From assembly GCF_000190435.1 (NCBI RefSeq), contig NC_015152.1:2362458-2426457 (forward strand): a DNA stretch of 64,000 nucleotides. The letters run 5' to 3'. This DNA comes from Sphaerochaeta globosa str. Buddy. Its GTDB lineage: Bacteria; Spirochaetota; Spirochaetia; Sphaerochaetales; Sphaerochaetaceae. The notes under the pieces were generated by a model. It ran no database searches, was not told the origin of the DNA, and saw only the letters and a list, made by a program, of their open reading frames with translations. A program made the translations under genes and the position numbers. Shown here piece after piece: positions 4,214-21,135 of the stretch; position 1 is the stretch's first letter, and each line of letters starts with the position of its first letter.

Positions 4214-4219
4214 GGTTAT

Positions 4220-4600: not shown

Positions 4601-4604
4601 AGCA

Positions 4605-5507: not shown

Positions 5508-8500
5508 AAAGCCACCTCATCCTTTTCAATCTTATCCACCAAAAGAGGCGAGACATAGCGTACCAAACCTGCCGAACTGAGTTGGACCTTCCTTACGTCA
5601 TAGTTTTTGATTGTAGTTAAGGTAAAGCTGGTATCTTGACCCTTTTTTGATTTAGCTAAATTTGAAAAATAAATTTGATACCCAGAACCCATTTCAGTGA
5701 ATGTAATAATTATCACAAAGGTTCTTCCTGGTTTTGCATTAGGAAGTCGCACATGTGTGGTCTTCGCCAAATTTGACTCTGCTTCCGTTAGATCCGAGGC
5801 TCTCAACTCACATACATCACCTTGATAAAGACGCACGTATAACGAGTACCCCTGCTTCATGTATGCAGGCTTGTAGGATGGATTCATTGCTTGAATTTTC
5901 CTAATGATCTCCCCGCAAAGCTTACCCTGTGCATCATGATAGAAGTCGAGACATAAGTTAGATCCGGTATCAAACGCAAATCCCTTGACTTCATTGGAGG
6001 GCTCTTTAACCACGAAAGTTTTAGTTCTCTTGTTGTTGGAAATCAAATAGTAATACCCGCCAACCAACTCCAATGCCTTCTTACTGATTGTCTTTTCGGA
6101 GAGCTGAATAGGCTTCTTACCTGACTCAATCAATTTCCTGTTGCTTTCCTCCAGTACTGCTGCAGCCTGAACCAAGGACTCTTTGTATTTCTGAAGAGCA
6201 GCTTCATTCTTAGATTGTAACTGTTCAATTTTATCCTTCATTTCCATGGGGTACCACTTCGGCTGTTTATCGGTAATGCGTCCACGTATTGCCGAAGCAA
6301 CCTCCTCATAGTCCCCAATCTTAACCCCAATGTCCTTGATCTTCTTCTTCACTACAAACACAAGGTCTTCGCCTTGGGTGTCTGCACCAAGAATCGAATA
6401 CACGGTATCTTTCAGTAAAGCACCATTTGCATCATTATCAGTCTTCATGCTCACAAAAGCATGAAGGTCCATGAATTCCAGAATCTTCTTCCTGAACAAT
6501 TCTCTTTGGGCTTCAAATGATAGATTGGGTTCCGAGGCATACCCCGGGATGGGAATCATCGCTTCAATTTCTACTGCACGCTTACCCTGCTCCGACATCG
6601 TGTTGATCATTTGTACCAAGGAACGGGAACAGTAGAGGGCAACAATCGCATCCAGTCCATGGTGGCGGTTGTCATCGCGGTTTTTCCTCATAGTCGGGGA
6701 GGTATCAGCATCCTTCGACCAGTGCCTGCTGCCCAGAAGGTCATCAATTCCTTGAAGGTTCCATGCTTTGCGGAGAATACTCGTCTCCATGCCTTTCAAT
6801 GATCCAACGGCTGTCACATTATTGGGATTGAACAGGCATCGCAAGTATTCTTTTGCAGCCTTCGCTATATAGCTATTGTCCGATTCAAATCGAGAGACAA
6901 AACCTTTTGATTGAAGATACTTTGCATATTCTTCCTCATTCGTCTCAAATTTTCTCCGTTTTCTCCACATGCCGGGAGTCTCGTCAAGATAGTGCATAAT
7001 CGGACCCCATGCAGATGTATTGGAGAAAGCAGCATAGGGCGTTCTCTTGCCCTTTATATCGTTGCATTGACGGTGAGCAACGACCTTATTGCCGTAAGAG
7101 TTATCAGCAGTATCATCCCTTGGGAAAATATGATCCACATCAGCTCTTCCCGCCGCAATATCAGCAACAGAGATATGCTCAAGGCAGTAAGGGCAAACAA
7201 ACGCCTGGTCTTCTAATAGCCGAAACCGCTCGATGTATCGCTTATCGAGATTGTTAGGCTCACAATACTTGGAGTATGCTAGAACAGCCTCCTTCTCTTG
7301 CTTCGTCTGTTGTTTGATAATATCTTCACGCTTCTCTGCTCCAACCTTCAACTCTCTTGCCAACTCAACAGTGATTTCCTGTGGCTTAGCACCAAGTATC
7401 GTAATCAATTCATTCATGAGCTTACGTAATTCATTGAGTGTCTGATGAACTACGGGATTGGCAATCCGTCCATACTTCTCTTCATCTGAATTTGTGTTGG
7501 GTTTGAAAAACCCTTCACTGTCACGTTTCTCCTTGAATGCAGAATGCCAATATTTGCCCATCAAGGCCTGTGTTGATCCAGTAAGAATTTGTCCATAATA
7601 TGGCAACAACGATTGCTGCTCCCATACTGAGAGTTCCTGAAACTCACCGGTTTCCATACCTCTTTCAAGCGCCTCGGTATAGGTCAAACCATCTTCAAGA
7701 TGCTTCATAAGCAATTGCGTGGCAGTTTTTCCAATCGGGCCGTAATCGCCAATCAGAGATACAGTTTTCAATGCATCAACAACCTCATTTTCTGTGAGAA
7801 GAAGATGCTTCATCAAGTATTTGGAGAGTCGTTTGTCATCGGGGGTATTTGTCCAAGCACTGAAAAAATCATCCTTTTGCTCTTCGCTGAGCCTTTTCCA
7901 AAATGATTTTTCTTCAAGCCTCCTAAATCGGAATCCAGCAATTTTCTGGATTGCTTTCTCCTTCCCTTGCAGGACAATGATGCTCGTTTTCAACGCCGGA
8001 AACTCTTTCTGCACAAGCTTCGGGGTAATATCGGTGCCGGATCTTGCTATATGAAAGAGAATATGACGTTGCTCATCAGAAAAGGATGCTGACTGATACC
8101 GTTTGGCAGCGCCCTCTTGCATTGGCATTTTGATCCTGGCATTATTTATAGCCTCCCATAAACGTCGCTCTTCGTTGAGGAAATGACATCGCGGCAGCTT
8201 CTTCTCATCTGGAAAATACGGGCAGCAGCCTGCTTCAGGAACAATTTTTTCATTCTCAAACAAAATTGCAGAGACTATGCGGTCACAATACTCATCAGAA
8301 AGAATTTCCTGATAAAATTGTTTTTGCGTTTGTAGCAATACATCGATTTCATTGCTAATGATATCACGAGTGGGGACAGGAACACCCTTGCTCTTCACTG
8401 ATTCGGAATTGCGATATCCGATTAAGCCATTTGTATTGAATGCAGTAAGGACTTCAATAAACGTGGAGATACCCTTCTCCTTGGCCAGCTGCTCTGTCAT

Positions 8501-9034
8501 TGCTTGTTGTTCCTCAAGCTTCTTATCATCGGAGCTTTTCTCTTCATCGAGAAATGTGCGTACGGAAGAAGATCCCCTGTGATTAGCAATGTGATACAGG
8601 GCATATCCTAGCTCTGAAAGCGTTAGTTGCTCGTTTAGCCCCTTCAGACGTAATTCATATGGATTTGCTCTTACTACAGCGTCTTCAAACCGGAGTCTCG
8701 CGGGGTCAGGCACATCCTGCTCTGAATACGAAAGCATAAGGTTACGTTCTGCTAAAAGTTTCCATAGGAACTTCAGCCGATTTGCCCGATGACGAAGAGA
8801 GTTTCGCTGTCCACGTTTTTGTCGTCTTTCGGCAGCGCCAGTAGAAGGGATGAAGATTCTTGAAGATACAAAAACCAAATCCGAAGGTTGCTTTTTAATT
8901 GGGTCGTATGCAGCTACAGCTACTCCGATCGAGCCTACTCCCAAATCAAGGCCAATGCTATACGGTCTAGAACCTAGTCTTTGACAGATTTCTTGTGCTT
9001 GCTCTTCATACCGACGTGACACTTTCTTTGACAT
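5495..9034 (-). CDS. cas9: Type II-C Cas9 RNA-guided endonuclease, 1179 aa
   Basis: crRNA:tracrRNA-guided double-strand DNA endonuclease. RuvC-I is SIGLDLGVGSIG (Asp30). The arginine-rich bridge helix runs at about 65-90 (RRQKRGQRNSLRHRANRL). RuvC-II is ITVELARELK (Glu557). The HNH domain has VDHIFPRDD (Asp634, His635) and Asn658 in HRQCNDIKGK. RuvC-III is NRHHGLDAIV (His792, Asp795). The last 250 or so residues form the PAM-interacting region. The HNH keeps CPYC and HxxC pairs that can bind zinc. All catalytic residues are intact, so the nuclease should be active. The start is supported by AAGGAAGG 6 bases upstream. At 1179 aa it is at the large end for II-C. The PAM cannot be read from the gene; spacer-target alignment would give it. 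Confidence 0.98.
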   Translation of the reverse strand: MSKKVSRRYEEQAQEICQRLGSRPYSIGLDLGVGSIGVAVAAYDPIKKQPSDLVFVSSRIFIPSTGAAERRQKRGQRNSLRHRANRLKFLWKLLAERNLMLSYSEQDVPDPARLRFEDAVVRANPYELRLKGLNEQLTLSELGYALYHIANHRGSSSVRTFLDEEKSSDDKKLEEQQAMTEQLAKEKGISTFIEVLTAFNTNGLIGYRNSESVKSKGVPVPTRDIISNEIDVLLQTQKQFYQEILSDEYCDRIVSAILFENEKIVPEAGCCPYFPDEKKLPRCHFLNEERRLWEAINNARIKMPMQEGAAKRYQSASFSDEQRHILFHIARSGTDITPKLVQKEFPALKTSIIVLQGKEKAIQKIAGFRFRRLEEKSFWKRLSEEQKDDFFSAWTNTPDDKRLSKYLMKHLLLTENEVVDALKTVSLIGDYGPIGKTATQLLMKHLEDGLTYTEALERGMETGEFQELSVWEQQSLLPYYGQILTGSTQALMGKYWHSAFKEKRDSEGFFKPNTNSDEEKYGRIANPVVHQTLNELRKLMNELITILGAKPQEITVELARELKVGAEKREDIIKQQTKQEKEAVLAYSKYCEPNNLDKRYIERFRLLEDQAFVCPYCLEHISVADIAAGRADVDHIFPRDDTADNSYGNKVVAHRQCNDIKGKRTPYAAFSNTSAWGPIMHYLDETPGMWRKRRKFETNEEEYAKYLQSKGFVSRFESDNSYIAKAAKEYLRCLFNPNNVTAVGSLKGMETSILRKAWNLQGIDDLLGSRHWSKDADTSPTMRKNRDDNRHHGLDAIVALYCSRSLVQMINTMSEQGKRAVEIEAMIPIPGYASEPNLSFEAQRELFRKKILEFMDLHAFVSMKTDNDANGALLKDTVYSILGADTQGEDLVFVVKKKIKDIGVKIGDYEEVASAIRGRITDKQPKWYPMEMKDKIEQLQSKNEAALQKYKESLVQAAAVLEESNRKLIESGKKPIQLSEKTISKKALELVGGYYYLISNNKRTKTFVVKEPSNEVKGFAFDTGSNLCLDFYHDAQGKLCGEIIRKIQAMNPSYKPAYMKQGYSLYVRLYQGDVCELRASDLTEAESNLAKTTHVRLPNAKPGRTFVIIITFTEMGSGYQIYFSNLAKSKKGQDTSFTLTTIKNYDVRKVQLSSAGLVRYVSPLLVDKIEKDEVALCGE

Positions 9035-9065
9035 ATGAACCTTCCTTTTTCACGTTATGTCTTTG

Positions 9066-9094
9066 CTGATAGTGATAAGTATAGTCCATGTCAA
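9066..9094 (-). promoter_or_regulatory. Candidate cas operon promoter
   Basis: On the minus strand a perfect -35 TTGACA (9089-9094) lies 17 bp from TATCAG (9066-9071, 4/6 to TATAAT), leaving a leader of about 25 bases before the cas9 ATG. It is the only consensus -35 in the 222-base gap. Confidence 0.45.
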
Positions 9095-9201
9095 GATTGG
9101 ATAGCGAATATTATGTTCTTTTTCCCATAAAATATTTACTACTTCGGCAATAATTATGCATAGGTAATTTTTACTTAACATATGATATGCTAAAGATTTA
9201 G

Positions 9202-9230
9202 GGATTCTTTTATACTGAATCCTGATTTTT
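9202..9230. terminator. Weak hairpin between SDR gene and cas operon
   Basis: Arms GGATTC (9202-9207) and GAATCC (9217-9222) flank a 9-base loop. A T-rich tail follows on the plus strand and a poorer one on the minus strand. It may end transcripts of the SDR gene, but the stem is only 6 bp. The rest of 9095-9256 is A/T-rich with no other feature seen. Confidence 0.35.
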
Positions 9231-9256
9231 TGTTGGGAAATTCGACAACAAGTACC

Positions 9257-10039
9257 TTAAACTCCTCCAGCTATCCGCACATTCTCTCCGGTTATATAGC
9301 TGGCATCGTCGCTCATAAGAAAGGCGACAACACCTGGGATTTCCTTAATATCCCCTAACCTATGCATGGGAATTTCATTGACCATCTGATGCTCTACTAC
9401 TAAAGGGTCGCTATCGTAATAGGGAGAACCTGCCTGGGCTTGGAGTGCAACCTGACGGTCCCACATCACCCCGGGGCCCATAAAGGCCGGGCTGATAGCA
9501 TTCACCCGTATGCCATAAGGAGCCAAATCCTTGGCTGCAATCTTGGTCATCGAGATAATGGCCGCCTTACTCGAACCATAGGCAATCATATTGGGAGGAA
9601 CGCCTACTCCGGCCATGCTGGCGGTGTTTACGATACAACCCGATCCTTGCTTGACCATCACTTCCGATACTGAACGCAATACATGAAAAGCTCCTACGAG
9701 ATTGATGTTGATTACCTTGAAGAAATCATCCTGAGGATATGCATGAGTCTTCTTGAACAACCCTTGGTAGCCGGCGTTGTTGAACAGTAGGTCAATCTTT
9801 CCAAAGTCGGAGACCACTTGATTAACAGCTGTCTGTACGCTTTGTGCATCGGTTACATCACAACGATAGGAACGGGCTTCTCCCCCGATAGCCTCAACAG
9901 CTGCTTGAGTCGCATCGCTTGGGCGTACATCAAAAAGAGCCAAAATAGCCCCTTCCCGGGCAAACCGAAGCGCTACAGCCCTACCAATATCCCCGGCAGA
10001 GCCGGTTACCACCAATACGTTGTCAGCAAATCTCTTCAT
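9257..10039 (-). CDS. Short-chain dehydrogenase/reductase, 260 aa
   Basis: Classical SDR with a Rossmann fold that should oxidise or reduce a small alcohol/ketone with NAD(P). It has the cofactor loop TGSAGDIGRA near residue 13, the NNAGYQG strand, a catalytic Ser in NTASMAG and the YGSSK catalytic motif. I start at 10039 because AAGGAG lies 10 bases upstream and MKRFADNVLVVTG is a normal SDR N terminus; the open frame to 10120 adds unconserved residues. The 93-base gap behind the DMT permease gene may hold its own start signal. Substrate not identifiable. It could be the last gene of the TetR-headed unit. Confidence 0.9.
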   Translation of the reverse strand: MKRFADNVLVVTGSAGDIGRAVALRFAREGAILALFDVRPSDATQAAVEAIGGEARSYRCDVTDAQSVQTAVNQVVSDFGKIDLLFNNAGYQGLFKKTHAYPQDDFFKVININLVGAFHVLRSVSEVMVKQGSGCIVNTASMAGVGVPPNMIAYGSSKAAIISMTKIAAKDLAPYGIRVNAISPAFMGPGVMWDRQVALQAQAGSPYYDSDPLVVEHQMVNEIPMHRLGDIKEIPGVVAFLMSDDASYITGENVRIAGGV

Positions 10040-10132
10040 GTCTGAAAAGCTCCTTCTTATAGATGTCATCTGATAGTAACTATCGCACAACATCAAGAGC
10101 CGATGCATTTGGATATGCAAGAATCAGGAGAT

Positions 10133-11059
10133 TTACACTCCTTCCTTACGTAAGATTGCATGCTGCCTTGGTACCAGCCTCGCCCTATTGTTGAACAGAG
10201 CCACTCCAAAGAGAATCATCAAACCACCTATAATGGTTCCGGTATCGGGAATATCACCGATCAGGATGATCTCCAGCAACGTGGAGAGCAAGGGCGTGAC
10301 AAACATGAAGTTGGTAACATCACCGATTTGTTTGGCGATGGACAAGGCTTTTGTCCAGAGCAGAAAACCGATTGCACTGGGGAAGATTCCCATGAACAGG
10401 ACAGCCAAGAGTGATTGGACGGGAGCAGTCCTTACTTCCTCAATGGCTTGGGGTAGGAACAACAGGAACATGAAGGCAGAAGCTACTATGGTGTAGACCG
10501 TCGATTGCACGGGAGTATAGCGTTTGGTGGCAAAGCGTTGGATCAGGTTGTAGCCTGCAAAGCAGAGGGCGGCAATTATCATCCACGCCAAGCCCCACCC
10601 GATGGAGACTTCCCGCTGCCAGAGTGTGAGGACCAGAATTCCAGCAAACTCAAGGCACACGGCAATCCACCCAAGGTTTCCAAGTTTCTCCCTGAACAGC
10701 AGTGAGGCAAAGAAGGCTGTAAGGACGGGGACGGTTGCAGTTACAACGCTCGCCGTTGCTGCCGTGATGGTTGTCATCGCTACATTGAAGAATATCTGGT
10801 AGAAAAAGAAACCCAAGGCTCCCAACACCAGAAAGAGAGGAACATCCTTCAATGTAGGAAGCCCTATACGTTTGACCAATCCAATTACCACAAGAATAAC
10901 AGCAGCCGATCCATACCGCAGGAGGCCCAAAGGAAATGGCCCGATGTCCCGCACGGCGATGCGTGTGAATACAAAGCCCGTGGACCAAAGCATTACGGTA
11001 AGGAAAGCCAAGATCAGTGCACTGTTATTCGAGGTGTCGGATGATTGCTTCATGGGCAT
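10133..11059 (-). CDS. EamA/DMT-family transporter, 308 aa
   Basis: Inner-membrane permease of the drug/metabolite transporter superfamily. There are about ten hydrophobic segments in two EamA repeats, the first holding FTRIAVRDIGPFPLGLLRYG and the second the matching GYNLIQRFATKRY region. Family members export amino acids and related metabolites. I start at the ATG at 11059 because the frame-opening TTG at 11089 has no ribosome-binding site; AAAGG precedes the ATG. It follows livF after 57 bases with no terminator between, so it may be cotranscribed with the liv genes. Confidence 0.88.
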   Translation of the reverse strand: MPMKQSSDTSNNSALILAFLTVMLWSTGFVFTRIAVRDIGPFPLGLLRYGSAAVILVVIGLVKRIGLPTLKDVPLFLVLGALGFFFYQIFFNVAMTTITAATASVVTATVPVLTAFFASLLFREKLGNLGWIAVCLEFAGILVLTLWQREVSIGWGLAWMIIAALCFAGYNLIQRFATKRYTPVQSTVYTIVASAFMFLLFLPQAIEEVRTAPVQSLLAVLFMGIFPSAIGFLLWTKALSIAKQIGDVTNFMFVTPLLSTLLEIILIGDIPDTGTIIGGLMILFGVALFNNRARLVPRQHAILRKEGV

Positions 11060-11116
11060 CAAGGTACGCCTTTGGTAGGCAATAATCAAGAATGAGAAGG
11101 AGGTAAAAGCTCGGAA

Positions 11117-11845
11117 TCATTTGCAATCCATTGGTTTTCGCTTACCCCCCAAGTAGGCTTCAGCGACCTTTGAATCTGAAAGCAAGGCAAGACCTTTCCC
11201 CTCCAGAATGACTCTACCATTCTCAATCACATACCCATAATCACTCATACAAAGCGACTTGTTCGCATTCTGCTCCACAAGAAGAATAGTTGTACCGCTC
11301 TCTTTGATTTGCTTAATAGTCTCAAAAACTTCGCGAACAATAATTGGTGCCAATCCCAACGATGGCTCATCAAGCATCAGAAGTCGCGGTCCACCCATCA
11401 AGGCCCTGCAGATAACCAGCATTTGCTGCTCACCTCCGGACAGCGTACCCGCATCTTGGTCTTTTCGTTCTTTCAGCCGAGGGAAAAGTGCATACTGACG
11501 TGCCAATAATTGCGGGAGCTGTTTTCTGTCGGTTATGGTATAGGCACCTACCAATAAGTTCTCCTCAACAGTAAGCCCTGCAAAGACTTTTCTTCCTTCT
11601 GGTACTTGTACGATGCCTTTTCTTACCACCTGGTTACTCTTTAAGGGAAGTTGTTTTCCATCAAACTGTATTGAGCCTTTATAAGGGACCATCGCAGAGA
11701 TAGCATTAATAATCGTAGTTTTTCCTGCACCATTGGAACCAATAATCGAAGTGATAGTCCCTTCTTGAATTTGCATCGTTATTGCATGTAAGGCTTCGAC
11801 CATTCCATAGGCCACGGTAACATCATGAATCTCAAGCAGTGCCAT
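11117..11845 (-). CDS. livF: Branched-chain amino acid-type ABC transporter ATPase LivF
   Basis: One of two cytoplasmic ATPases of a HAAT-family importer. Walker A is GSNGAGKTT, the signature is LSGGEQQML and Walker B is LLMLDEPSLGLAP, with the PEGRKVFAGLTVEENLLVGA block typical of LivF. The length of 242 aa is usual. It lies 2 bases after livG. The substrate need not be a branched-chain amino acid: the binding protein and the co-encoded hydrolase and lyase suggest an amide-linked or acyl compound. Confidence 0.93.
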   Translation of the reverse strand: MALLEIHDVTVAYGMVEALHAITMQIQEGTITSIIGSNGAGKTTIINAISAMVPYKGSIQFDGKQLPLKSNQVVRKGIVQVPEGRKVFAGLTVEENLLVGAYTITDRKQLPQLLARQYALFPRLKERKDQDAGTLSGGEQQMLVICRALMGGPRLLMLDEPSLGLAPIIVREVFETIKQIKESGTTILLVEQNANKSLCMSDYGYVIENGRVILEGKGLALLSDSKVAEAYLGGKRKPMDCK

Positions 11846-11847
11846 GG

Positions 11848-12621
11848 TTATTCCTCCTCACCCAAGTATGCAGAAAGAACTGCTTCATTTGTCTGGATTT
11901 CTGTAGGGGTTCCTTCAGCAATGGTAGTACCAAAATTCTGAACGTACAGGTACTGGCAGAGATTCATGATGAGATCCATCCTATGCTCAATCACCAAAAT
12001 GGCAATCTGTGGATACAATCCCTTGATTTGTTGAATAAAATCTATCAGTTCAAATACCTCTTCAGGATTCAATCCGGCAGCAGGCTCATCCAGAAGCAAG
12101 ACACTGGGCTCACAAACCAAAGCCCTGGCAATCTCCACTCTCCGTTGCAGTCCATATGCCAAATTCGCAGGACGAAGGGATGCATATTGTTCAAGGTTCA
12201 AAACTTCCAGACATTTCGAAGCTCGTTCAGTTGTCAATTTTTCTTGTTTGAACCTTCGAGGAAGGAGAAACATAGCTTCGAAGAAGGAGTATTTTCCTGC
12301 ATAATCCAAGGATACCTTCACATTCTCCAAAACTGAAAGACCACTGAACAGGCGAATATTTTGAAAGGTACGAGCCAATCCCATTCTTGCTACGGTAACT
12401 TGGTCCTTGGCATCTATACATTGGCCCTTGAACAGGATGCTTCCAGCATCCTGTTGATAGATGCGGGAAAGTACATTGAAGATAGTAGTTTTACCTGCAC
12501 CATTAGGTCCAATAATCCCTCGAATTTCTCCTGGATTCAAGGACATGGAGAATGTATCAACTGCTTTTACGCCTCCAAATGACATACACACATCGGTACA
12601 CTTCAGAACGAGTTCAGCCAT
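11848..12621 (-). CDS. livG: Branched-chain amino acid-type ABC transporter ATPase LivG
   Basis: Second ATPase of the importer. Walker A is GPNGAGKTTIFNV. The signature LAYGLQRRVEIARAL is the usual LSYG(Q)RR LivG variant with Ala for Ser. Walker B is LLLDEPAAGLNPEE. The length of 257 aa is normal. The start overlaps the end of livM by 8 bases, so the two are translationally coupled. Confidence 0.93.
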   Translation of the reverse strand: MAELVLKCTDVCMSFGGVKAVDTFSMSLNPGEIRGIIGPNGAGKTTIFNVLSRIYQQDAGSILFKGQCIDAKDQVTVARMGLARTFQNIRLFSGLSVLENVKVSLDYAGKYSFFEAMFLLPRRFKQEKLTTERASKCLEVLNLEQYASLRPANLAYGLQRRVEIARALVCEPSVLLLDEPAAGLNPEEVFELIDFIQQIKGLYPQIAILVIEHRMDLIMNLCQYLYVQNFGTTIAEGTPTEIQTNEAVLSAYLGEEE

Positions 12622-13510
12622 TGTTGCTCTCCTTCCGGTTTCTTATGACAAAGCGTTTAATGGCTCGAAGTGAGAGCTCATACTCGCCAAACACACCACT
12701 TGGCCTAAAATTGATTATGAGAAGAATCAGTACACAGTATATGATCGTCCGGTACTCCTGAAGGCTCTGCCCGAAAAGCGTCACAGTCCTGAAAAGTTCG
12801 GGTAATAATTTCAGAAGAGCACCTGCAAAAACTGCTCCAGTAATTGAATTAGTGCCTCCGAAGAAAAGGAAAATCTGCATTTCCGCAGAAAGATTCCAAC
12901 CAAAGGAATCAGGCAGGATAACACGATTTTTCAAACCATAGAGAATTCCGGCAATACCCGCGATTGCAGAAGCAAGCACATACATACGCAGTTTCAAGCG
13001 GTAAACGTCAATCCCGAAACTTTTTGCAGCAATTTCGTCAGTTTTTAGAGCGATGCACATTCTGCCGAACCTAGAATACTTTAGGTTGCGAACACAGAAC
13101 ACTACCAAGGCAGTAATTCCAAGAATCACCCAGACAAGATGATTCACCTTCGGAATTCTGGAATACCCGATTGAACCATTTGTATACCGTTCCAAAAGTA
13201 CGATGGTGGCTGTAATCATCTGTCCAAATCCCATGGTAATTAATGCGAAATAGTCTTTTCTTAACTTGAGGGTAGGAACGCTTATGACATACGCACACAA
13301 GGCACTTAATCCGATACCAGCGACAGATGTTACGAATATAGGCAGGTTGAACATTCGTGCAAGAATGAAGGTAACGTAAGACCCGATTGCCAAATATGCT
13401 GCTTGCCCTAAAGAAAACATTCCTGCCAAGGAAGTAATTGCAAATACACCGGTTACACCGATGATTGAGATACAGGAGTTCATGATTAATCCAAGTTGAT
13501 AACTGCTCAT
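12614..13510 (-). CDS. livM: Branched-chain amino acid-type ABC permease LivM
   Basis: Inner-membrane permease of the HAAT importer, 298 aa with about nine hydrophobic segments. It has the LivM-type GMFSLGQAAYLAIGSYV near the N terminus and the coupling-loop region RMCIALKTDEIAAKSFGID, which contacts the ATPases. It ends with FRPSGVFGEYEL, the usual family C-terminal motif. It overlaps livG by 8 bases and starts 9 bases after livH. Confidence 0.92.
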   Translation of the reverse strand: MSSYQLGLIMNSCISIIGVTGVFAITSLAGMFSLGQAAYLAIGSYVTFILARMFNLPIFVTSVAGIGLSALCAYVISVPTLKLRKDYFALITMGFGQMITATIVLLERYTNGSIGYSRIPKVNHLVWVILGITALVVFCVRNLKYSRFGRMCIALKTDEIAAKSFGIDVYRLKLRMYVLASAIAGIAGILYGLKNRVILPDSFGWNLSAEMQIFLFFGGTNSITGAVFAGALLKLLPELFRTVTLFGQSLQEYRTIIYCVLILLIINFRPSGVFGEYELSLRAIKRFVIRNRKESNNG

Positions 13511-13519
13511 CTCTTTCTC

Positions 13520-14401
13520 CTATACCTTTTCCTTAGCGAATTTTCCGGCAATACCCTGTGGCCTGATAAACAAGAAAAGCAACATCAAAATGAATAACAT
13601 AACCGGAGCAGAAAAAGCCCCAAAGAAATACGTCCAGAAAATCTCAAGTACACCAAGAAGAACAGCAGCTGCAATTGCTCCTCCTAGACTGCCTAGGCCG
13701 CCAATTACACTGGCAATAAAGCCCTTGATCATCATAGTCTGTCCTAAATCTGGATATACTGAATATTTTGCACCCAGCAGGACGCCGCTCACTCCTGCTA
13801 GAAAACCTGCGATAATAAAAACCATCACAACCACAACCCCACTATTTATTCCCATCAACCTACTGGTGTCGGCATTGATCGCAACGGCTCGGATTGCCAG
13901 TCCCATCTTGGTTTTTGTAATTACTAGTATCATCAGCATCAAAATCAAAAGAGAAATTGCCATGATCATCGTGTCCATGGTTGAAACCCGCAGAGACCCG
14001 ATCATAAAAAAGTTGCTTGAGAAAATATTTGGATAGGCATAGGGATTTTTGCTGTAGCCGATATTGAGAATCTGTTCGATGATTATGGAAATCGTCAAGG
14101 AGGAGAGAAAATAATAGATGTTCGGACTCTTGTTTTTTCGTATGCTCCGATAAGCAATCAAATCCAGCAACAGTGCGATACCCATTCCACAAAGCCCTGT
14201 AAACAGTATAGTCACGAGTATGGAGGGTGCTGGGTCGAACGATCGCTGGAAAAAAAATCCAATATATGCACACGCGCTTATCATCCCACCATGAGCAAAG
14301 TTACTGAATTTAAGGACACTGAAGACTACCGCAAACCCTACGGCAATCAAAGCGTACACAGCTCCAAGGGAAATTCCATTAATCAAAAGTTGCGCTACCA
14401 T
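13520..14401 (-). CDS. livH: Branched-chain amino acid-type ABC permease LivH
   Basis: Partner permease of LivM, 293 aa and strongly hydrophobic. It begins with the LivH pattern LLINGISLGAVYALIAVG and has the coupling-loop segment GLAIRAVAINADTSRLMGI and a C-terminal LFIRPQGIAG. It follows the binding-protein gene after 60 bases that contain a 9-bp stem-loop, suggesting lower expression than livJ. Confidence 0.92.
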   Translation of the reverse strand: MVAQLLINGISLGAVYALIAVGFAVVFSVLKFSNFAHGGMISACAYIGFFFQRSFDPAPSILVTILFTGLCGMGIALLLDLIAYRSIRKNKSPNIYYFLSSLTISIIIEQILNIGYSKNPYAYPNIFSSNFFMIGSLRVSTMDTMIMAISLLILMLMILVITKTKMGLAIRAVAINADTSRLMGINSGVVVVMVFIIAGFLAGVSGVLLGAKYSVYPDLGQTMMIKGFIASVIGGLGSLGGAIAAAVLLGVLEIFWTYFFGAFSAPVMLFILMLLFLFIRPQGIAGKFAKEKV

Positions 14402-14418
14402 GGATAGTTCCTTATGCA

Positions 14419-14441
14419 GGAGGACGGATTTCCCGTCCTCC
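14419..14441 (-). promoter_or_regulatory. Intercistronic stem-loop between livJ and livH
   Basis: A perfect 9-bp stem (GGAGGACGG / CCGTCCTCC, loop of 5) lies between the binding-protein stop and the livH start. No T-run follows in the direction of transcription, so it is more likely an mRNA-stabilising or attenuating structure than a full terminator. Confidence 0.6.
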
Positions 14442-14461
14442 CAGCCAAACTTGACAAATAC

Positions 14462-15646
14462 TTAATTTACCTTAATGAAATCAACAATTCTAAGACTCAA
14501 CTTCTCATCATAATCAGCAATGTACATTCCCATGTTGCTGGGTCGATGAGTTGCAGGATCAATGGTAATGGTTGAACCGCTGCTGAGCATTACATTGTCT
14601 GTCTTACGCAGAAGATCAGCAACTTCTTTTCCATCAGTCGGGTCCTTTGCCATGCGCATTGCTTGGGCCAATACTTGAACCGCATCCCAACCAAAGCCAA
14701 CATTTGCAGCTGGGGCTGCCGTGCCGGTCTCTTTCATGTGCTTGGTTACCAGCTCGTTGATATTCCCTACATTTGAATTGAGCATGTCATAGTTCTGTAA
14801 GAAATAGACGTCATTTACCTTATTCTTTACCATCGTAGCAAAGGGAAGGGACAAGGTATTTGCACCAATGATGGCACCCTTGAAGCCGGCATCGCGCAAT
14901 GCATCATAACTGGTAACATTCTGCGGCAGATAATCACAGAGGAACACAACATCAGGTTTAGCTGCCACTATCTTTATAGCCTGTGCGCTGTAATCCTTAT
15001 CTGTCCATGAGAAGGTCTGCTCACTTACTACCTTTCCACCATTAGCATTCATGTATTGGACAAAAGGAGCAGCTTGGCTTTTTGCAAAGGCATTACCAGG
15101 GTTGTACAGTGTAGCCGCGGTTTTTGCACCAAGCTTCGTCAAGGCATATTCGGCCATGCAGTAACTTTGGATCGCACTACTGGGCTCTGCAAGGAACATA
15201 TAGGGGTAAGGTTTACCCGTATCAGGATTGGTGGTACAGACTTCATCCATGAAATGGCCAACGATGGGAATACTATCTTCTTCGGAAAGCTCTACCCATG
15301 CGGCAGCCGGATTGGACAGAGGAGGCCCGATAATGGCTGCAACGCCAACCTCATCAACAAGCTTGCGATAGGCCATCACGCCCTCGGCAGCATCGTTTTT
15401 ACAGTCCATGGTAGTAATCTCGAGCATACGCCCATTGATGCCGCCTTTCTCGTTAATGACCTTTACAGCATATTCGGCACCCCATGCATTGGGTTGGCCG
15501 GCTGTAGAAGCTCCACCACTCAGATCTTGGATACTTCCGATTTTTATAGGTCCTTCACCTTTCAGGCTACTCTGTTCAGTTGCTCCTCCAGCAAAAACAG
15601 AAAATGTAAGGCCCAATAGAAGCATGAAAACAATAAGCTTCTTCAT
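14462..15646 (-). CDS. livJ: Periplasmic substrate-binding protein LivJ-type
   Basis: Extracytoplasmic binding protein (Peripla_BP_6 fold, 394 aa) that delivers ligand to LivHMGF. The N terminus is a signal peptide (MKK plus a hydrophobic stretch ending FSVFAGG); there is no lipobox Cys, so it should be soluble in the periplasm. Mature sequence starts PIKIGSIQDLSGGASTAG, with the GGINGRMLEI block usual for the family. A strong AAGGAGGAGA site precedes the ATG. Stem-loops flank the gene on both sides. The ligand cannot be told from the sequence. Confidence 0.92.
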   Translation of the reverse strand: MKKLIVFMLLLGLTFSVFAGGATEQSSLKGEGPIKIGSIQDLSGGASTAGQPNAWGAEYAVKVINEKGGINGRMLEITTMDCKNDAAEGVMAYRKLVDEVGVAAIIGPPLSNPAAAWVELSEEDSIPIVGHFMDEVCTTNPDTGKPYPYMFLAEPSSAIQSYCMAEYALTKLGAKTAATLYNPGNAFAKSQAAPFVQYMNANGGKVVSEQTFSWTDKDYSAQAIKIVAAKPDVVFLCDYLPQNVTSYDALRDAGFKGAIIGANTLSLPFATMVKNKVNDVYFLQNYDMLNSNVGNINELVTKHMKETGTAAPAANVGFGWDAVQVLAQAMRMAKDPTDGKEVADLLRKTDNVMLSSGSTITIDPATHRPSNMGMYIADYDEKLSLRIVDFIKVN

Positions 15647-15670
15647 TTTTTCTCCTCCTTAGTATTACAA

Positions 15671-15686
15671 ATCAGCTAACGCTGAT
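15671..15686 (-). promoter_or_regulatory. Small stem-loop ahead of livJ
   Basis: ATCAGC and GCTGAT arms with a 4-base loop lie in the 52-base gap between the DapA-like gene and livJ. Together with the 9-bp stem behind livJ it could delimit a stable livJ mRNA segment. The stem is short. Confidence 0.35.
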
Positions 15687-15698
15687 ATAGAGACACAG

Positions 15699-16766
15699 CT
15701 ACAAATCTCTCTTCCAATGCGGGAGATTTTCCAGAATAAAGGAATCATCAATAAGCTTGGGATAACTTCTGATCACCCGATCAAGCTCTTCACTTTGCCC
15801 TGGTGATAGATCTTCCTCACTATCGAGGCAATATCGATTCTTGAATATTCCCTGCCTTCGAAGCACCTCATGAATGCCGGGAATGCATCCCTTGAACGCA
15901 TGATGCGGATCAAAAACCGCTGCGTTCATATCAGTCACCGCTGCTGCAAGATGGATAATCGAAGCATCAATGCAACCTTCATCCACCGCATTTCCCAGCA
16001 GTTTATGCAACTCAACAGCTTTCTTCGTCCAGATACACCAATGCCCAAGCAGTCCTCCGGAGAATCGAACTGAACGCTTGCCTTCAGGTGTTTCAAATGT
16101 AAAAACATCCATGAGATCATGAACGATGTTATCGTCATTACCGGTATAAAGTGCTATCTGTTTGTGCCGGGAGGAACATGCAACAGCGCGTACTACATCG
16201 AGCGTGGTATATCGGTTGAAACTTGCGCACTTAATTGCAACCAGGTTTGGAATCTCACACAGTTTCTGCCAATATTCATAGGAAAACACGCGTCCGCCGA
16301 CAGCGGTCTGAAGATAAAACCCTATGACAGGAATTACCGAGGCTACTTGTATTGTCCGCTCAATTAGAGATTCCTCGGAAAGGTGATTCAATCCACCAGG
16401 GCTTAACAATACCGCGTCATAGCCAAGAGACTTCGCCAATCGAGCTTCCTGAAGGGCTTGCTCGATTGGTCCGCATACACCACATACACGCACGATACAA
16501 GTGTTGTTGGCCGCCTCAAAGCGAGCTATCTCATCAATGATCAACGAAATGACTGGTTCAAACAGATGTATCTCGGGATCTCGAATGCTGAATTGGGTAC
16601 TGTGGACTGCTGTGGCAATACCACCTACTCCACAAGCAAGATAGTAACGCATCAACAATCGCTGAGTTTTCTCATCGAACATCCTTGCATCATCCAGTGC
16701 AAGCGGTGTTGCTGGAATTACCGTACCCTTGGCAAGAATTCTTAACGCTGCTTGATGGTCATGCAT
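15699..16766 (-). CDS. Dihydrodipicolinate synthase/N-acetylneuraminate lyase family protein
   Basis: Class I aldolase-type TIM barrel, 355 aa (family usually about 300). The Schiff-base lysine is in NLVAIKCASFNRY and the preceding strand is PVIGFYLQTAVGG. The usual YNxP motif is replaced by FYLQTA, so the substrate differs from that of DapA or NanA. The phosphate/carboxylate loop near the N terminus reads GVGGIATAVHSTQF rather than GTTGE. Its ATG overlaps the upstream stop (TAATG), giving tight coupling to the epimerase-like protein. The reaction is probably cleavage or condensation of a 2-oxo acid, but the compound is unknown. Confidence 0.82.
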   Translation of the reverse strand: MHDHQAALRILAKGTVIPATPLALDDARMFDEKTQRLLMRYYLACGVGGIATAVHSTQFSIRDPEIHLFEPVISLIIDEIARFEAANNTCIVRVCGVCGPIEQALQEARLAKSLGYDAVLLSPGGLNHLSEESLIERTIQVASVIPVIGFYLQTAVGGRVFSYEYWQKLCEIPNLVAIKCASFNRYTTLDVVRAVACSSRHKQIALYTGNDDNIVHDLMDVFTFETPEGKRSVRFSGGLLGHWCIWTKKAVELHKLLGNAVDEGCIDASIIHLAAAVTDMNAAVFDPHHAFKGCIPGIHEVLRRQGIFKNRYCLDSEEDLSPGQSEELDRVIRSYPKLIDDSFILENLPHWKRDL

Positions 16767-17782
16767 TAGTAACTCCCCTTCCTTTCCTCAAAATGCGTCG
16801 GCATGTTCAAATCATGGCCGCCTGCGAGTATCCATTCAGCTTGCCATGCAATCATGGTATCGAGGCTGACATGAGGATACCCAAATACACTATGGGCTTT
16901 TGATGCATTTATAAGATATGCATCACCATTCTCTTCTCCGGTAAAGATCGGGTCCTTTCCAAACAGGACACCGAGCTTCTTCGCAGTCTCTTTGACCCCT
17001 ACCAACTCGGGACCTGTAGCATTAAGAATCACGGGAGGATTGTCGGCAAGAAGCAAGGACCTAATAGCATACTCATTGGCGTCTGCCTGCCAAATACAGT
17101 TGAAACAACCATTACCTAAATCAAGGGGAATCTGATTATAAACCTTGCGGGCAATGTCACTTATTACGCCATACTCAAGAGCAATCGCATAACTCAATCT
17201 ATAAATCAGTACCTTCGTACCACAGGTTTTTGCGTAATATTCAAAAATCCGCTCTCTAGCAAGACAGCTTTGGGGATACTCTCCAAGGGGTCTACAAGGC
17301 GTGCTCTCGCTCGCACCTCCGCTGGAAGCCGTTACCAATGGATAGATATTCCCTGAAGAGAACACAACAAACCGTGACTTCTTGAAACGCTCACAAACCA
17401 ACGTGGGGACTACTGCATTCATTCCCCATGTTTGCCATTCATTTCCATCCGTACCAAATTTCCTGCCTGCCATAAAGATGATATTCTCAACCTCAGGCAA
17501 AGCTTGTAGATCATCTTTTTTCTGCAAATCACAAGAGAGAACAACTACGCCTTCCCTTTCCAGTTGAGAACGTTTCTCCTGGTTGGTAAACCGAGAAACC
17601 GCATATACCTTTTTATCAAGCTTGGCTTCATTGATAGCATGCTGGGCCATGAGGCAAACAGAAGGTCCCATCTTGCCTCCAGCACCCAATATCATAATGT
17701 CACCCTTCATACTCTTTATGTCCTCAACTAGACGAGTGGAAGGCTTAGTTAAAAGCTTCTCCAAAGATACTTGATCCCACAT
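16766..17782 (-). CDS. NAD(P)-dependent epimerase/dehydratase family protein
   Basis: Extended-SDR Rossmann protein, 338 aa. The dinucleotide-binding loop is MILGAGGKMGPS near residue 30, followed by the strand VVVLSCDLQKKDDLQALP and the acidic-region VENIIFMAGRKFG. The expected YxxxK is not clear: the sequence around the active site reads VFSSGNIYPL and later GEYPQSCLARE. It is coupled to both neighbours by TAATG overlaps. It should reduce, oxidise or epimerise an intermediate of the same pathway; the substrate is not recognised. Confidence 0.8.
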   Translation of the reverse strand: MWDQVSLEKLLTKPSTRLVEDIKSMKGDIMILGAGGKMGPSVCLMAQHAINEAKLDKKVYAVSRFTNQEKRSQLEREGVVVLSCDLQKKDDLQALPEVENIIFMAGRKFGTDGNEWQTWGMNAVVPTLVCERFKKSRFVVFSSGNIYPLVTASSGGASESTPCRPLGEYPQSCLARERIFEYYAKTCGTKVLIYRLSYAIALEYGVISDIARKVYNQIPLDLGNGCFNCIWQADANEYAIRSLLLADNPPVILNATGPELVGVKETAKKLGVLFGKDPIFTGEENGDAYLINASKAHSVFGYPHVSLDTMIAWQAEWILAGGHDLNMPTHFEERKGSY

Positions 17783-19065
17783 TATCTTCCTCCTTGTGCT
17801 TGCAGATGTACCAGATACGTCTCTCTATCCATACTTGGGATAAAGGAATCTCGAACTTGTTTTGCTTGGCAAGCGCCATTGGTAAGTAGCGCCAGAACCA
17901 GCTCGGCAAGCAACTCGCCTCCAAGCCGATAACTTTCCCATGCATCAACCATACAAAATTCCTTTGAATGAGCTTCACCAATAAAGCCACCCATTGTTGG
18001 TTGGATACAAGGCTTGAGCTGAGCGAGATCCCCCATATCGGTAGAACCGATCATATCTTTTCCCCAAACAACATCACCGATTCCTTGTACATCCTTTGCT
18101 ATGGATGCAAAGAGGGTACTCAGGTTGCTGTCTTGTTTGAGTGGGAGGTATCCAGGGATGGTTTTAACCTTAACCTCAGCCCCCATCATGGATGCTCCGG
18201 CTTGAACACACCGGTCAACAACATTACAACCTTTATCTATGGCTTGTTTGCATGATCCTCGTACGTAGGTTTCCATACGAACATCCGAAGGTACCGTATT
18301 CACAACATCTCCACCCTTTGTCAAAATCGGATGAATCCGTATACGTTCTTCTTCTGAGAAAGTCTCTCTATTTGCATTCATTCCAGCCATTGCCAGATTA
18401 GCGGCTTGCAATGCATTAACGCCTTTGAAAGGGGCTGCCCCGTGGGCTTCTTTACCGATAAACTGAATATGCTTGGCTGTAAAGCCTAAACTGCCACCCC
18501 CGACAAATACATCGTACGATGGATTTTCGGGTTGTGAATGAATCATAATTACCATATCGACATCGTCGAAAGCGCCAAGATGGATGAGCTCTTGTTTACC
18601 GGAAAGATAGGCAATGCTACCCTGCTTTTGTAATTCCAACCGATGCTGGAGATCAAGAAACTCTTCAGCGGGAACAGCCATACAAACGACATCACCGTCT
18701 AGTTGTTCCTTCAAAGTATTGAGAGCAAGAGCCGCAGCATAGACTTGAGTAGATTGCGTGCTATGACCACAGGCATGGGCCTCTCCACTTTCTGCTGCAA
18801 ATTGGTTGGAGGGGCTTATAACTGCATCAAGCTCAGACAGGATACATACGGTAATTTCGTGCGTTTTACCTTCGATTCTAGCTTTAAGACCCGTTCGTGC
18901 AAGTTTGTTTTCTATAGGAAGTCCCATTTTTCGATAGGCAGATTCAATAAAAGCACTGCTGAAAAACTCCTCATAACCAAGCTCCGGATGAGCTAGCAAT
19001 GTGGAACCAAATAGCATAATTGTATCTTTATTGTAGTTTAGGATGGTTCTAATTTCATCTTGCAT
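17782..19065 (-). CDS. M20-family amidohydrolase/peptidase
   Basis: Cytoplasmic zinc-dependent amidohydrolase, 427 aa, M20D-like (the family of aminobenzoyl-glutamate and N-acyl-amino-acid hydrolases). Metal-binding HACGHSTQST near residue 95 keeps the Cys and His but has Ser for the Asp that usually follows. The catalytic Glu pair is in AVPAEEFLD. A dimerisation insert follows VVNTVPSDVRMETYVRG. The C-terminal EAHSKEFCMVDAW supplies the last His. It is the first enzyme gene after the TetR regulator, 12 bases downstream, and overlaps the next gene by one base. It probably releases an amino acid or amine from the imported substrate. Confidence 0.87.
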   Translation of the reverse strand: MQDEIRTILNYNKDTIMLFGSTLLAHPELGYEEFFSSAFIESAYRKMGLPIENKLARTGLKARIEGKTHEITVCILSELDAVISPSNQFAAESGEAHACGHSTQSTQVYAAALALNTLKEQLDGDVVCMAVPAEEFLDLQHRLELQKQGSIAYLSGKQELIHLGAFDDVDMVIMIHSQPENPSYDVFVGGGSLGFTAKHIQFIGKEAHGAAPFKGVNALQAANLAMAGMNANRETFSEEERIRIHPILTKGGDVVNTVPSDVRMETYVRGSCKQAIDKGCNVVDRCVQAGASMMGAEVKVKTIPGYLPLKQDSNLSTLFASIAKDVQGIGDVVWGKDMIGSTDMGDLAQLKPCIQPTMGGFIGEAHSKEFCMVDAWESYRLGGELLAELVLALLTNGACQAKQVRDSFIPSMDRETYLVHLQAQGGR

Positions 19066-19077
19066 ATATGAACTCTC

Positions 19078-19704
19078 CTACTGCCTTGCTTTGAGGTAGG
19101 CCAGTAACATTTCTGTCGTTGCCTGAATTCGCTTTTCACGATTCTCTGAGAGCATCAAATCCTTGCCAACAATAATATTTAGAGTATTCATGTTGGAGAA
19201 ATAGTTGAAAGAGCATGCGATTAGCGTGAGTATCAGTTGATCGCTATCGATGGATTCAGGTACTTCACTTCGGAGGCGTGCTTCTTGGATAATTCTCCCG
19301 AGTTCATGGAGAATAGGATTTTTTGTTTCTGCGACACCTCGTTCTTTGAAACTTTTTGCTCCATGCAGGTTTTCCCACATGACCATGCGAACAAACGATG
19401 GATTATCATAGAGAAACTGGAAATATATGTGCACGAGATCCTTAAGCTTCAATTCGTAATCTGTCTGCAGGTTGATGACTTTTTCTTCCAAGTCGCCTAG
19501 ACGGGTATAGACTCGTACTAATACTTCTTTGTACAAAGTCTCCTTATTCCCAAAATGACGATAAATGAGAGCTTTATTTACATTTGCTTTACGAGCGATT
19601 TCGTCAACCCTACACCCATAGAGACCCTTATCAGAAAACTCTTCTTCAGCAAATTTTAGAATTGCTTTTTTCGTAGCATCTGTACGCATCTCTTGCTTGG
19701 TCAT
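19078..19704 (-). CDS. TetR/AcrR-family transcriptional regulator
   Basis: Dimeric repressor of 208 aa. The N-terminal helix-turn-helix (about residues 27-47) has VDEIARKANVNKALIYRHFG, the standard TetR recognition helix with YRHF. The rest is an all-helical ligand-binding domain. It is the first gene of the minus-strand unit that runs through the amidohydrolase and liv genes. A perfect inverted-repeat operator lies 18 bases before its ATG and overlaps the predicted start of transcription, so autoregulation with the operon is very likely. AAGGA precedes the ATG. Confidence 0.92.
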   Translation of the reverse strand: MTKQEMRTDATKKAILKFAEEEFSDKGLYGCRVDEIARKANVNKALIYRHFGNKETLYKEVLVRVYTRLGDLEEKVINLQTDYELKLKDLVHIYFQFLYDNPSFVRMVMWENLHGAKSFKERGVAETKNPILHELGRIIQEARLRSEVPESIDSDQLILTLIACSFNYFSNMNTLNIIVGKDLMLSENREKRIQATTEMLLAYLKARQ

Positions 19705-19721
19705 GTGACATCCTTATAAAA

Positions 19722-19743
19722 GTAACTAACTAGTTACAGTTTA
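19722..19743 (-). promoter_or_regulatory. TetR operator overlapping operon promoter
   Basis: A perfect inverted repeat, GTAACTA-AC-TAGTTAC (19722-19737), directly abuts a -10-like TAAACT (minus strand, 19738-19743). Confidence 0.8.
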
Positions 19744-19767
19744 GGGATAGATTCTCACTTTTGTCAA
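19738..19767 (-). promoter_or_regulatory. Promoter of the TetR-amidohydrolase-liv unit
   Basis: Minus-strand -35 TTGACA (19762-19767) lies 18 bp from TAAACT (19738-19743); the start of transcription would fall inside the operator. The rest of 19768-19868 is A/T-rich with nothing else seen. Confidence 0.6.
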
Positions 19768-19868
19768 ACATTCTTTTATTAAAATTATATCGATAGTTTA
19801 AAAATGGATAGTAGAATCTATCAAATCTTTATCTGAAATATAAATATATTTCTATTTTAATAGTAATT

Positions 19869-20504
19869 CTAGAAGGATACCTGCACCCCTACCAAAGAGC
19901 CAGTTAGCACTTTGGGGGCATTAGCATCCTTTTGCTGCATCCGATGGGTCAGATACGGGCCTAGAAACCCAATGGCTGAGCCTATTGCTGCACCGGCTGC
20001 GACATCCGATGTATAGTGGCATCCGCTTACCACACGCAACACTGCAGTACCGAGGGCTAAAGCCCACGTTGTAGCACTGACAGCCTTCATGGCTTTAGAG
20101 TCGGGATAGAAAAGAATCTGCATGGTCTGGGTGTAGGCCGCTGCACTGAAGGCCATCAGGGTATGCCCGGAGGGAAACGATTCATAGTTTTTTTCAGATT
20201 TCACTCCATCAGGAAGGGGAACCCCATCCTGGACATACGGCCTCGGTTTGTGAATTACTTGTTTTAAAACGGTACGAACGGTATAGGCTTCTACCATGGT
20301 CCACGCATAACTGGTTGCTACAGTCAGGTAATCAGAAGGGGGCGCAACAAATCCGATAGCTCCGGGGGCAATGAGGGTTAAACCCAAGGTGATATCACTG
20401 GCTGTGGAGAGGTCCTCATTGTAGGCAAAATCGAGGGCTGAGAGGGGGGACAAAAAGAAGCACAGGATCAGTAGTAGTGCAATTGTTGTCTGTTTTCTGT
20501 TCAT
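19869..20504 (-). CDS. PAP2-family phosphatase, exported
   Basis: Membrane or periplasmic lipid-phosphate phosphatase of the PAP2 superfamily, 211 aa. It shows the three signature blocks: KQVIHKPRPY, SFPSGHT and SGCHYTSDVAAG (catalytic His residues in the last two). The N terminus MNRKQTTIALLLILCFFLSP is a signal peptide or anchor. The start at 20504 is chosen because GGAGG lies 6 bases upstream. It begins 25 bases after recX ends. The substrate may be undecaprenyl pyrophosphate or another lipid phosphate. Confidence 0.88.
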   Translation of the reverse strand: MNRKQTTIALLLILCFFLSPLSALDFAYNEDLSTASDITLGLTLIAPGAIGFVAPPSDYLTVATSYAWTMVEAYTVRTVLKQVIHKPRPYVQDGVPLPDGVKSEKNYESFPSGHTLMAFSAAAYTQTMQILFYPDSKAMKAVSATTWALALGTAVLRVVSGCHYTSDVAAGAAIGSAIGFLGPYLTHRMQQKDANAPKVLTGSLVGVQVSF

Positions 20505-20529
20505 ACGTGCCTCCATTTGGATTTTCAGT

Positions 20530-21135
20530 CTACTCGGACTTTTCAAAGCCCTCAAGACCAAGGCGAATCTCATAGGAGGAAAAACCTTTCTTTTGCAGGT
20601 AATACCGCACCTTGTCCTCACCCACTTTCTTCACTACCTGCAGGTAGGCTTTCTGTACATACTCTACGATGGATTCTTCGTCATACAGCTCGTCCAAAGC
20701 ACGCTGGGCATCCTCGCGGGTAACCCCTTTGGCTGCAAGACGCTGGGCCATCAGGACTCTTCCCTCAGGACTTTTCTTCTGCCTGTGCTCAATGGTCAGG
20801 AGGGCATACCGATACTCGCTGAGTAGATTTTCTTCGGCAAGTTGCTCAAGGGTAGGTTTGATAATCTGCAGCTCATACCCCTTCTGCACCAGTTTTTGCG
20901 TCAGCTCAAGGGCTGTATGCTCGCGTCTGGCTAGGTAGACCATGGCTTGGGAGTAGCAATTGCGCTTCTGTTGAAAAGCCTTCAGCTCAGAGCACTGCTC
21001 CTCGGTAAGCTCCTGCCCCACACTGAGGTGCTGGGCACGAAAGACATCGGCTGTAATAAAAAAAGGGAAACCCTCGTGGACAAGGACTTGATAGCCTTGT
21101 CCAGGGATTTCCCCTTCGATGCGTGCAAATGCCAC
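20530..21135 (-). CDS. recX: Regulatory protein RecX
   Basis: Modulator that inhibits RecA filament growth and ATPase activity. The 201 aa protein has the tandem three-helix repeats of RecX, seen in LARREHTALELTQKLVQKGY, in LLSEYRYA and in the C-terminal KVRYYLQKKGFSSYEIRLGL. The start is a GTG that directly follows the rpsI stop (TAAGTG), so translation is probably coupled to ribosomal protein S9. No good ribosome-binding site is visible and no recA is present nearby. Confidence 0.85.
   Translation of the reverse strand: MAFARIEGEIPGQGYQVLVHEGFPFFITADVFRAQHLSVGQELTEEQCSELKAFQQKRNCYSQAMVYLARREHTALELTQKLVQKGYELQIIKPTLEQLAEENLLSEYRYALLTIEHRQKKSPEGRVLMAQRLAAKGVTREDAQRALDELYDEESIVEYVQKAYLQVVKKVGEDKVRYYLQKKGFSSYEIRLGLEGFEKSE

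Follow-up and report, generated by a model that had tools for sequence, protein, structure and literature searches.

What does a co-directional run of regulator, enzyme and importer genes in Sphaerochaeta globosa str. Buddy take up and degrade, and where does the run end? The genes lie in a 64,000-nucleotide stretch (the window) of a genome that consists of one contig of 3.316 Mb. They encode a TetR-family regulator, an M20 amidohydrolase, an epimerase-like protein of the short-chain dehydrogenase/reductase (SDR) type, a DapA-like lyase and a LivJHMGF importer. A sequence-only reading had proposed that a TetR-controlled unit of ten kilobases takes up an amide-linked compound, which is then hydrolysed and subjected to a redox change and an aldol-type cleavage, a combination for which it knew no described pathway. 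We propose that nine genes form a TetR-autorepressed operon, which would import an amide-linked carboxylate, cleave it with the M20 enzyme and pass the product to an SDR/lyase module. We put the probability of this reading at about 0.5, and we infer the substrate class, the order of the steps and the products. That the genes form a TetR-controlled uptake and catabolic operon is well supported, because the operator is conserved, there is one site per genome and the importer lies in the co-directional run. The architecture is ordinary, but it includes a conserved enzyme pair that is apparently undescribed and in which one residue has, unusually, been lost. The features are as follows.

19738..19767, minus strand: promoter-like site TTGACA-18-TAAACT (10/12), abutting the operator, directly before TetR; top score in 9000-20700
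19722..19737, minus strand: probable TetR operator GTAACTA-GT-TAGTTAC, a perfect 7-bp inverted repeat with a 2-nt spacer, 16 bp
19078..19704, minus strand: TetR-family regulator, first gene of the operon (PF00440 and PF17938); 89% identical in G719/G724
17782..19065, minus strand: M20D-type amidohydrolase (TIGR01891); 66% identical in G719/G724
16766..17782, minus strand: extended-SDR fold protein ("epimerase-like") without the SDR catalytic lysine (PF01370); 81% identical in G719/G724
15699..16766, minus strand: DapA/NanA-fold class I lyase of a divergent 355-aa family (PF00701); 73-74% identical in G719/G724
14462..15646, minus strand: LivJ-type (HAAT) periplasmic binding protein (Peripla_BP_6); 85% identical in G719/G724
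13520..14401, minus strand: LivH-type permease; 91% identical in G719/G724
12614..13510, minus strand: LivM-type permease; 90-91% identical in G719/G724
11848..12621, minus strand: LivG-type ATPase; 82% identical in G719/G724
11117..11845, minus strand: LivF-type ATPase, last gene of the conserved unit; 76% identical in G719/G724

Extent and control of the nine-gene operon

The nine genes run on the minus strand from 19704 to 11117 in the order TetR-M20-SDR-DapA-like-LivJ-LivH-LivM-LivG-LivF. From TetR onward the intergenic distances are 12, -1, -1, 52, 60, 9, -8 and 2 nt, and TAATG stop/start overlaps join M20 to SDR (at 17782) and SDR to the DapA-like gene (at 16766). The single strand, gene order, two couplings and short gaps described earlier were thereby confirmed. 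The earlier family calls also agreed with profile scores. TetR exceeded the Pfam cut-offs for PF00440 (54.3 bits) and PF17938 (75.6 bits), M20 scored 176.6 bits against the curated TIGR01891 cut-off of 153.75 and matched PF01546, and SDR and LivJ passed PF01370 and Peripla_BP_6 (PF13458), respectively. The lyase passed the dihydrodipicolinate synthase (DHDPS) profile PF00701 weakly (27.3 bits against a cut-off of 22.1). The Liv permeases and ATPases were assigned from their sequences and their conserved order rather than from profile scores; the importer is complete, with a binding protein, two permeases and two ATPases in the normal order.

Within the genus, the lyase was found in 3 of 26 genomes, this one included, and the other two copies (G719 and G724) are 73-74% identical to it. 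Both of these genomes carry the identical nine-gene set and order, at a different chromosomal site and with unrelated genes after LivF. There the neighbours of the cassette are a TTT transporter on one side and, on the other, a regulator accompanied by a sugar ABC system. Here it is flanked by a PAP2-type phosphatase on one side and by DMT, SDR and cas9 genes on the other (the PAP2 and flanking-regulator labels are our reading of the sequence). Because gene content, order and operator are kept in three genomes, the conserved set is more than chance. The G+C content is 0.444 for the nine genes and 0.494 for the whole window. This lower value and the patchy occurrence suggest that the cassette moves as a block, and the nine genes are presumably carried on a single transcript.

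The sequence-only reading had also counted as part of the unit a DMT (EamA) permease and a second SDR, which lie beyond LivF on the same strand (9257-11059) after 57 and 93 nt. The shared strand and these gaps make read-through possible in this strain, and a scan showed no terminator-like site from LivF to the start region of the SDR gene. In addition, a DMT-like gene (our own label) follows a 44% identical M20 in Subdoligranulum L085. The Subdoligranulum "plasmids" L085, L129 and L130 look like draft-assembly fragments, in which gene order cannot safely be joined. However, neither gene follows LivF in the two other cassette genomes, where their orthologues were not found at E<=1e-60. Orthologues within the genus are placed in other gene settings, and the G+C content of the two genes (0.498) differs from that of the nine. 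A functional unit of the full ten kilobases is therefore barely credible. The conserved unit ends at LivF; the nine genes are a real operon, and the DMT permease and second SDR are outside it.

All 16 bases of the operator are identical in the three species, within upstream DNA that has otherwise diverged. The site is present once per genome in G000, G719 and G724, and no second site within one mismatch was found in any of these three. As for the promoter, TTTGACAAA and TAAA[CA]T are kept in G719 and G724, with a single -10 base differing, in G719; across 9000-20700, promoter-like sites are no commoner than in shuffled sequence (a count at chance level). Because three species share the operator unchanged and each genome has it only once, self-repression of the operon is probable, by a TetR with a single target, to which the regulator is predicted to bind. 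Without inducer, TetR would occupy this single palindrome at the promoter and repress itself and the eight downstream genes. Binding of an inducer to TetR would then allow LivJHMGF to be made; this inducer is probably the substrate or a product formed early in the pathway. A TetR with a single operator is also a ready tool for ligand screening.

Further along the window (1263-9034) lies a type II CRISPR-Cas system, with cas9 (1179 aa, minus strand, 5495-9034), a cas1-like gene (4605-5507) and an array at about 1263-4100 of some 42 repeats at 66-nt spacing (repeat GTTGGGGATGACCGCTGATTTTTGTTAAGATTGACC).

The SDR/lyase pair in other bacteria

Homologues of the lyase were gathered from genomes, metagenome-assembled genomes (MAGs) and plasmids, and each locus was counted once, which gave 57 other loci. 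In high-G+C loci, genes were called by the longest open frame and neighbours are incomplete; weight was therefore placed on annotated plasmid records and low-G+C loci. In 53 of the 57 loci the SDR gene adjoins that of the lyase and lies on the same strand (SDR-lyase in 49, reversed in 4), with one intervening gene, TetR or GNAT, in 3. The pair was not seen in four loci: L044 (contig end), L110 and L113 (1.5 kb flanks only) and L111/L141 (none within 9 kb). Its hosts span at least six bacterial phyla: they belong to Spirochaetota, Bacillota, Actinomycetota, Pseudomonadota and Planctomycetota and include one KSB1 MAG. On contig L044, from a Verrucomicrobiales MAG, only the lyase was seen. M20, by comparison, accompanies the pair in just 9 of the 57 loci. 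The earlier expectation that the enzymes are conserved together accordingly holds clearly for SDR and lyase and largely fails for M20. The enzymatic core is the SDR and the DapA-like lyase, and amide hydrolysis is an option of some lineages.

The partners of the pair vary. Importers are carbohydrate ABC systems (L050, L053, L078), TTT (L055), SSF (L042-L046), MFS (L054, L061) and Nramp-like (L040, L142) transporters, ABC systems with a lone permease and ATPase annotated like NMT/Ssu (L056, L057) and, in this operon, Liv. Hydrolases are M20 (L048, L049, L054, L079, L081, L083, L122 and this cassette), alpha/beta hydrolase (L050, L061) and acetylxylan esterase (L052). Other companions are GNAT (L052, L056, L057), Gfo/Idh/MocA, AP_endonuc_2 and 2-hydroxyacid dehydrogenase. 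A Pfam scan of 54 neighbour proteins gave small counts: Gfo/Idh/MocA 5, 2-hydroxyacid dehydrogenase 4, SSF 4, TetR_C_29 4 and M20 3. Furthermore, an iron-sulfur L-serine dehydratase accompanies M20 and the pair in L048, L049, L054 (TIGR00720) and L079; these loci come from spirochaetes of two families, a Bacillota-sample genome and a plasmid of an actinobacterium. A serine-based mechanism was not built, because no iron-sulfur L-serine dehydratase is next to the operon studied here.

In some genomes the pair is a lone two-gene operon. This raises the idea that the pair serves generally to salvage or detoxify one common metabolite and has only been captured by the present uptake operon. For example, in L131, L133 and L134, from the Planctomycetota sample, the genes around the pair are unrelated to it and none is catabolic, and in L138 a related TetR comes immediately after it. 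In most other phyla, however, the pair is embedded with importers and sugar or acid enzymes, and its presence is patchy (3/26 genomes of the genus, 30/294 of the Planctomycetota sample and 5/398 of the Bacillota sample), unlike that of a housekeeping function. We regard the salvage explanation as decidedly unlikely.

Related TetRs flank the pair in nine other loci, and a AACYRGTTRGTT-type site precedes several of those operons; AACYRGTTRGTT gave 11 matches in 199 kb of TetR-bearing loci against 0 in 627 kb of TetR-free loci. The use of TetR plus operator as a marker of the pair was rejected, because the sample held only neighbourhoods of the pair and was thus biased. Related TetRs, some with a comparable site, were also found at the head of pair-free clusters. 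The operator type is therefore a trait of the TetR subfamily, and the pair is one client of this subfamily among others. Separately, a related TetR adjoins shikimate dehydrogenase in three alphaproteobacterial plasmids (L164:5854-7594, L162:5962-7627 and L165:6959-8679), a neighbourhood that hints at polyhydroxy-acid ligands for this TetR subfamily.

No reaction was found assigned to the pair in open-access full-text literature or family databases, which is not a complete literature survey. The view that no described pathway has this combination stood, in that no assigned orthologous cluster was found in the literature searched. One match to a DapA-family protein of Serratia (PMC11778176) was set aside: it is YagE with D-xylonate dehydratase, not this pair. 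The pair is conserved and apparently undescribed. Catabolic operons of unknown substrate are common; here the question is narrowed to one testable two-gene module, which is shared by spirochaetes, planctomycetes, bacilli, actinobacteria and alphaproteobacteria. Assignment of the pair in one organism would annotate many loci of "dihydrodipicolinate synthase family protein" and "NAD-dependent epimerase".

Predicted chemistry and candidate substrates

The amide hydrolysis proposed earlier is plausible for M20, which, besides passing the TIGR01891 cut-off, aligns with HmrA through the metal-ligand motifs HACGH, EE and H. For the lyase, the AlphaFold model (mean pLDDT 86) matches N-acetylneuraminate lyase (NanA), 4-hydroxy-2-oxoglutarate aldolase and DHDPS with Z scores of about 32 and a root-mean-square deviation (rmsd) of 2.2 over about 290 residues, at 14-20% identity; the top Foldseek match is NanA. 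In a 27-member alignment the Schiff-base Lys179 is kept in 27/27, the relay Tyr151 in 25/27 and Thr57 in 27/27. Because Lys179, Tyr151 and the Ser/Thr56-Thr57 pair are retained in a NanA/DHDPS fold, aldol-type cleavage, as suggested before, is plausible for the modelled enzyme. The family also has motifs of its own, VH[TS]TQF and GFYLQ.

The SDR is a different case. It has the extended SDR fold and a glycine-rich nucleotide motif, and its model (mean pLDDT 89) is nearest to TerB (Z 31, rmsd 2.6 over 292 residues). Ser142, Tyr169 (28/28), Lys37 and Lys108 are invariant among the members. The catalytic motif, however, begins as YxxS (YxxT once), and the next residue is Cys (22), Val (3), Ala (2) or Thr (1), so that the lysine of YxxxK is present in 0 of 28. 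Because this lysine is absent, classical hydride transfer should not be assumed and the step may be of another kind; the redox change proposed earlier is doubtful. The missing lysine is a direct question for SDR enzymology. As a side observation, the haloarchaeal plasmids L059 and L060 encode a lysine-less SDR (42-44% identical) with Gfo/Idh/MocA, FAH or DegT genes as neighbours and the DapA-like partner not nearby.

In our reading, LivJHMGF would import a small amide-linked carboxylate and the M20D enzyme would cut the amide in the cytoplasm. The SDR and lyase would then turn the released acid into an intermediate of the 2-oxo-3-deoxy type, which the Schiff base of the lyase would cleave or dehydrate, giving central metabolites such as pyruvate. 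The partner importers elsewhere speak for this, since they include carboxylate, amino-acid and sulfonate types (TTT in L055, NMT/Ssu-like in L056/L057), as does the recurrence of N-acyl-handling enzymes (M20, GNAT) around the pair.

Several observations weigh against it. The M20s outside the genus belong to another M20 subfamily, about 25% identical to this one; from this and the loose linkage (9/57), M20 may serve a lineage-specific side substrate. Its nearest relatives, in Bartonella (43%) and Haladaptatus (40%), adjoin a DUF3100 protein instead. Many importers at other pair loci are carbohydrate ABC systems. Liv-type binding proteins have a range of ligands too wide to name one, and neither the nearest solved binding proteins nor plasmid relatives (24-30%) narrowed the ligand of LivJ. 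Finally, no member with a known reaction was found for either core family, SDR or lyase, and the lack of the SDR lysine counts in the same direction.

A further idea, which we offer tentatively, is that the pair is an undescribed module of at least six phyla. In such a module, the lysine-less SDR would use its bound nucleotide in a non-classical manner (for example, internal oxidation-elimination or epimerisation) and make a 2-oxo acid for the lyase, and lineages would plug in different importers and acyl or ester hydrolases.

The sugar-type neighbours that recur at pair loci raise the question of whether the pair is an acid-sugar module comparable to the oxidative uronate route and the operon degrades the amide of a sugar acid. 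In that route, an NAD-epimerase-family SDR, uronate dehydrogenase, acts before the DapA-family 5-dehydro-4-deoxyglucarate dehydratase KdgD. Among NCBIfam models, only those for KdgD match the lyase, and a Nitratireductor pair is accompanied by an annotated mandelate racemase, a Gfo/Idh/MocA protein, a sugar phosphate isomerase and a TTT importer. The KdgD cut-offs, however, were missed widely (TIGR03249, 23.9 of 373.95 bits; NF002958, 26 of 278 bits). No NCBIfam model matches the SDR, which is also without the lysine that active SDR dehydrogenases carry, and solved uronate dehydrogenases were not among its profile matches at E<=0.001. Moreover, the full set of uronate dehydrogenase, aldarate dehydratase and KdgD is not present; this operon contains neither an aldarate dehydratase nor a lactonase. 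A uronate-like route is thus unlikely.

The N-acyl-handling enzymes around the pair, M20 (seven loci and the cassette) and GNAT (three), would also fit an operon that degrades an N-acylated amino-sugar acid. M20 would deacylate it and the pair would handle the amino sugar acid or a derived 2-keto-3-deoxy acid. This resembles the Ong oxidative chitin pathway, where a deacetylase and then a deaminase lead to 2-keto-3-deoxygluconate (PMC9537276). The NanA match of the lyase agrees with such a substrate, as does a NagA-like amidohydrolase (our own label) that immediately precedes a partial SDR gene in Subdoligranulum L130. In contrast, OngB is a putative D-aminoacylase and OngC a putative D-amino-acid deaminase, not M20 (PMC9537276). 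This operon has no deaminase, and the L-serine dehydratase found with M20 in L054, L048, L049 and L079 points to L-serine, not to a sugar acid. Nor is Liv the usual kind of importer for amino sugars. Degradation of an amino-sugar acid is therefore quite unlikely.

Comparison with known systems

The proposed route for an amide-linked carboxylate shares with the Ong pathway the logic of import, N-deacylation and then a 2-keto-3-deoxy acid, whereas Ong uses other enzyme families, an SSS importer and a kinase step (PMC9537276). The importer resembles LivJHMGF/HAAT amino-acid and amide importers in its five genes, their normal order and the PF13458 binding protein, which matches its best solved relatives, 4obb and 4nqr, at about 90 bits. 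Like the M20D amidohydrolases HmrA, IAA-amino-acid hydrolase and YxeP, M20 passes the TIGR01891 cut-off and aligns at the metal-ligand motifs; unlike them, it is over no equivalog cut-off, and its nearest relatives are 40-44% identical. A second uncharacterised set with an amidohydrolase was seen on a bat Bartonella plasmid (L084:8655-11263) and a haloarchaeal plasmid (L086:8634-11308), where a DUF3100 protein and a small hypothetical protein are followed by one of the nearest annotated M20 relatives (40-43%).

The regulator is 33-39% identical, over most of the protein, to TetRs of alphaproteobacterial catabolic clusters, some of which have a ACTAACTAGTT-like site upstream, as here. Those clusters contain shikimate dehydrogenase with a sugar-phosphate-isomerase/HPPD-domain protein, or a sugar ABC system, and in the six inspected the SDR/DapA pair is not beside the TetR.

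Finally, the two core enzymes each keep the frame of a known superfamily. With DHDPS, N-acetylneuraminate lyase, 4-hydroxy-2-oxoglutarate aldolase, KdgD and YagE, the lyase has in common the fold, the Schiff-base lysine, the relay tyrosine and the carboxylate-binding Ser/Thr-Thr pair. It differs in length (355 aa against about 290-310 aa), in VH[TS]TQF where NanA has GSTGEAF, and in GFYLQ at the relay tyrosine. The SDR shares its fold and glycine-rich nucleotide site with extended SDRs such as the TerB oxidoreductase (6d2v, 6nd7) and UDP-hexose epimerases; in the alignment, TerB has Lys at the YxxxK column, whereas this SDR family never does.

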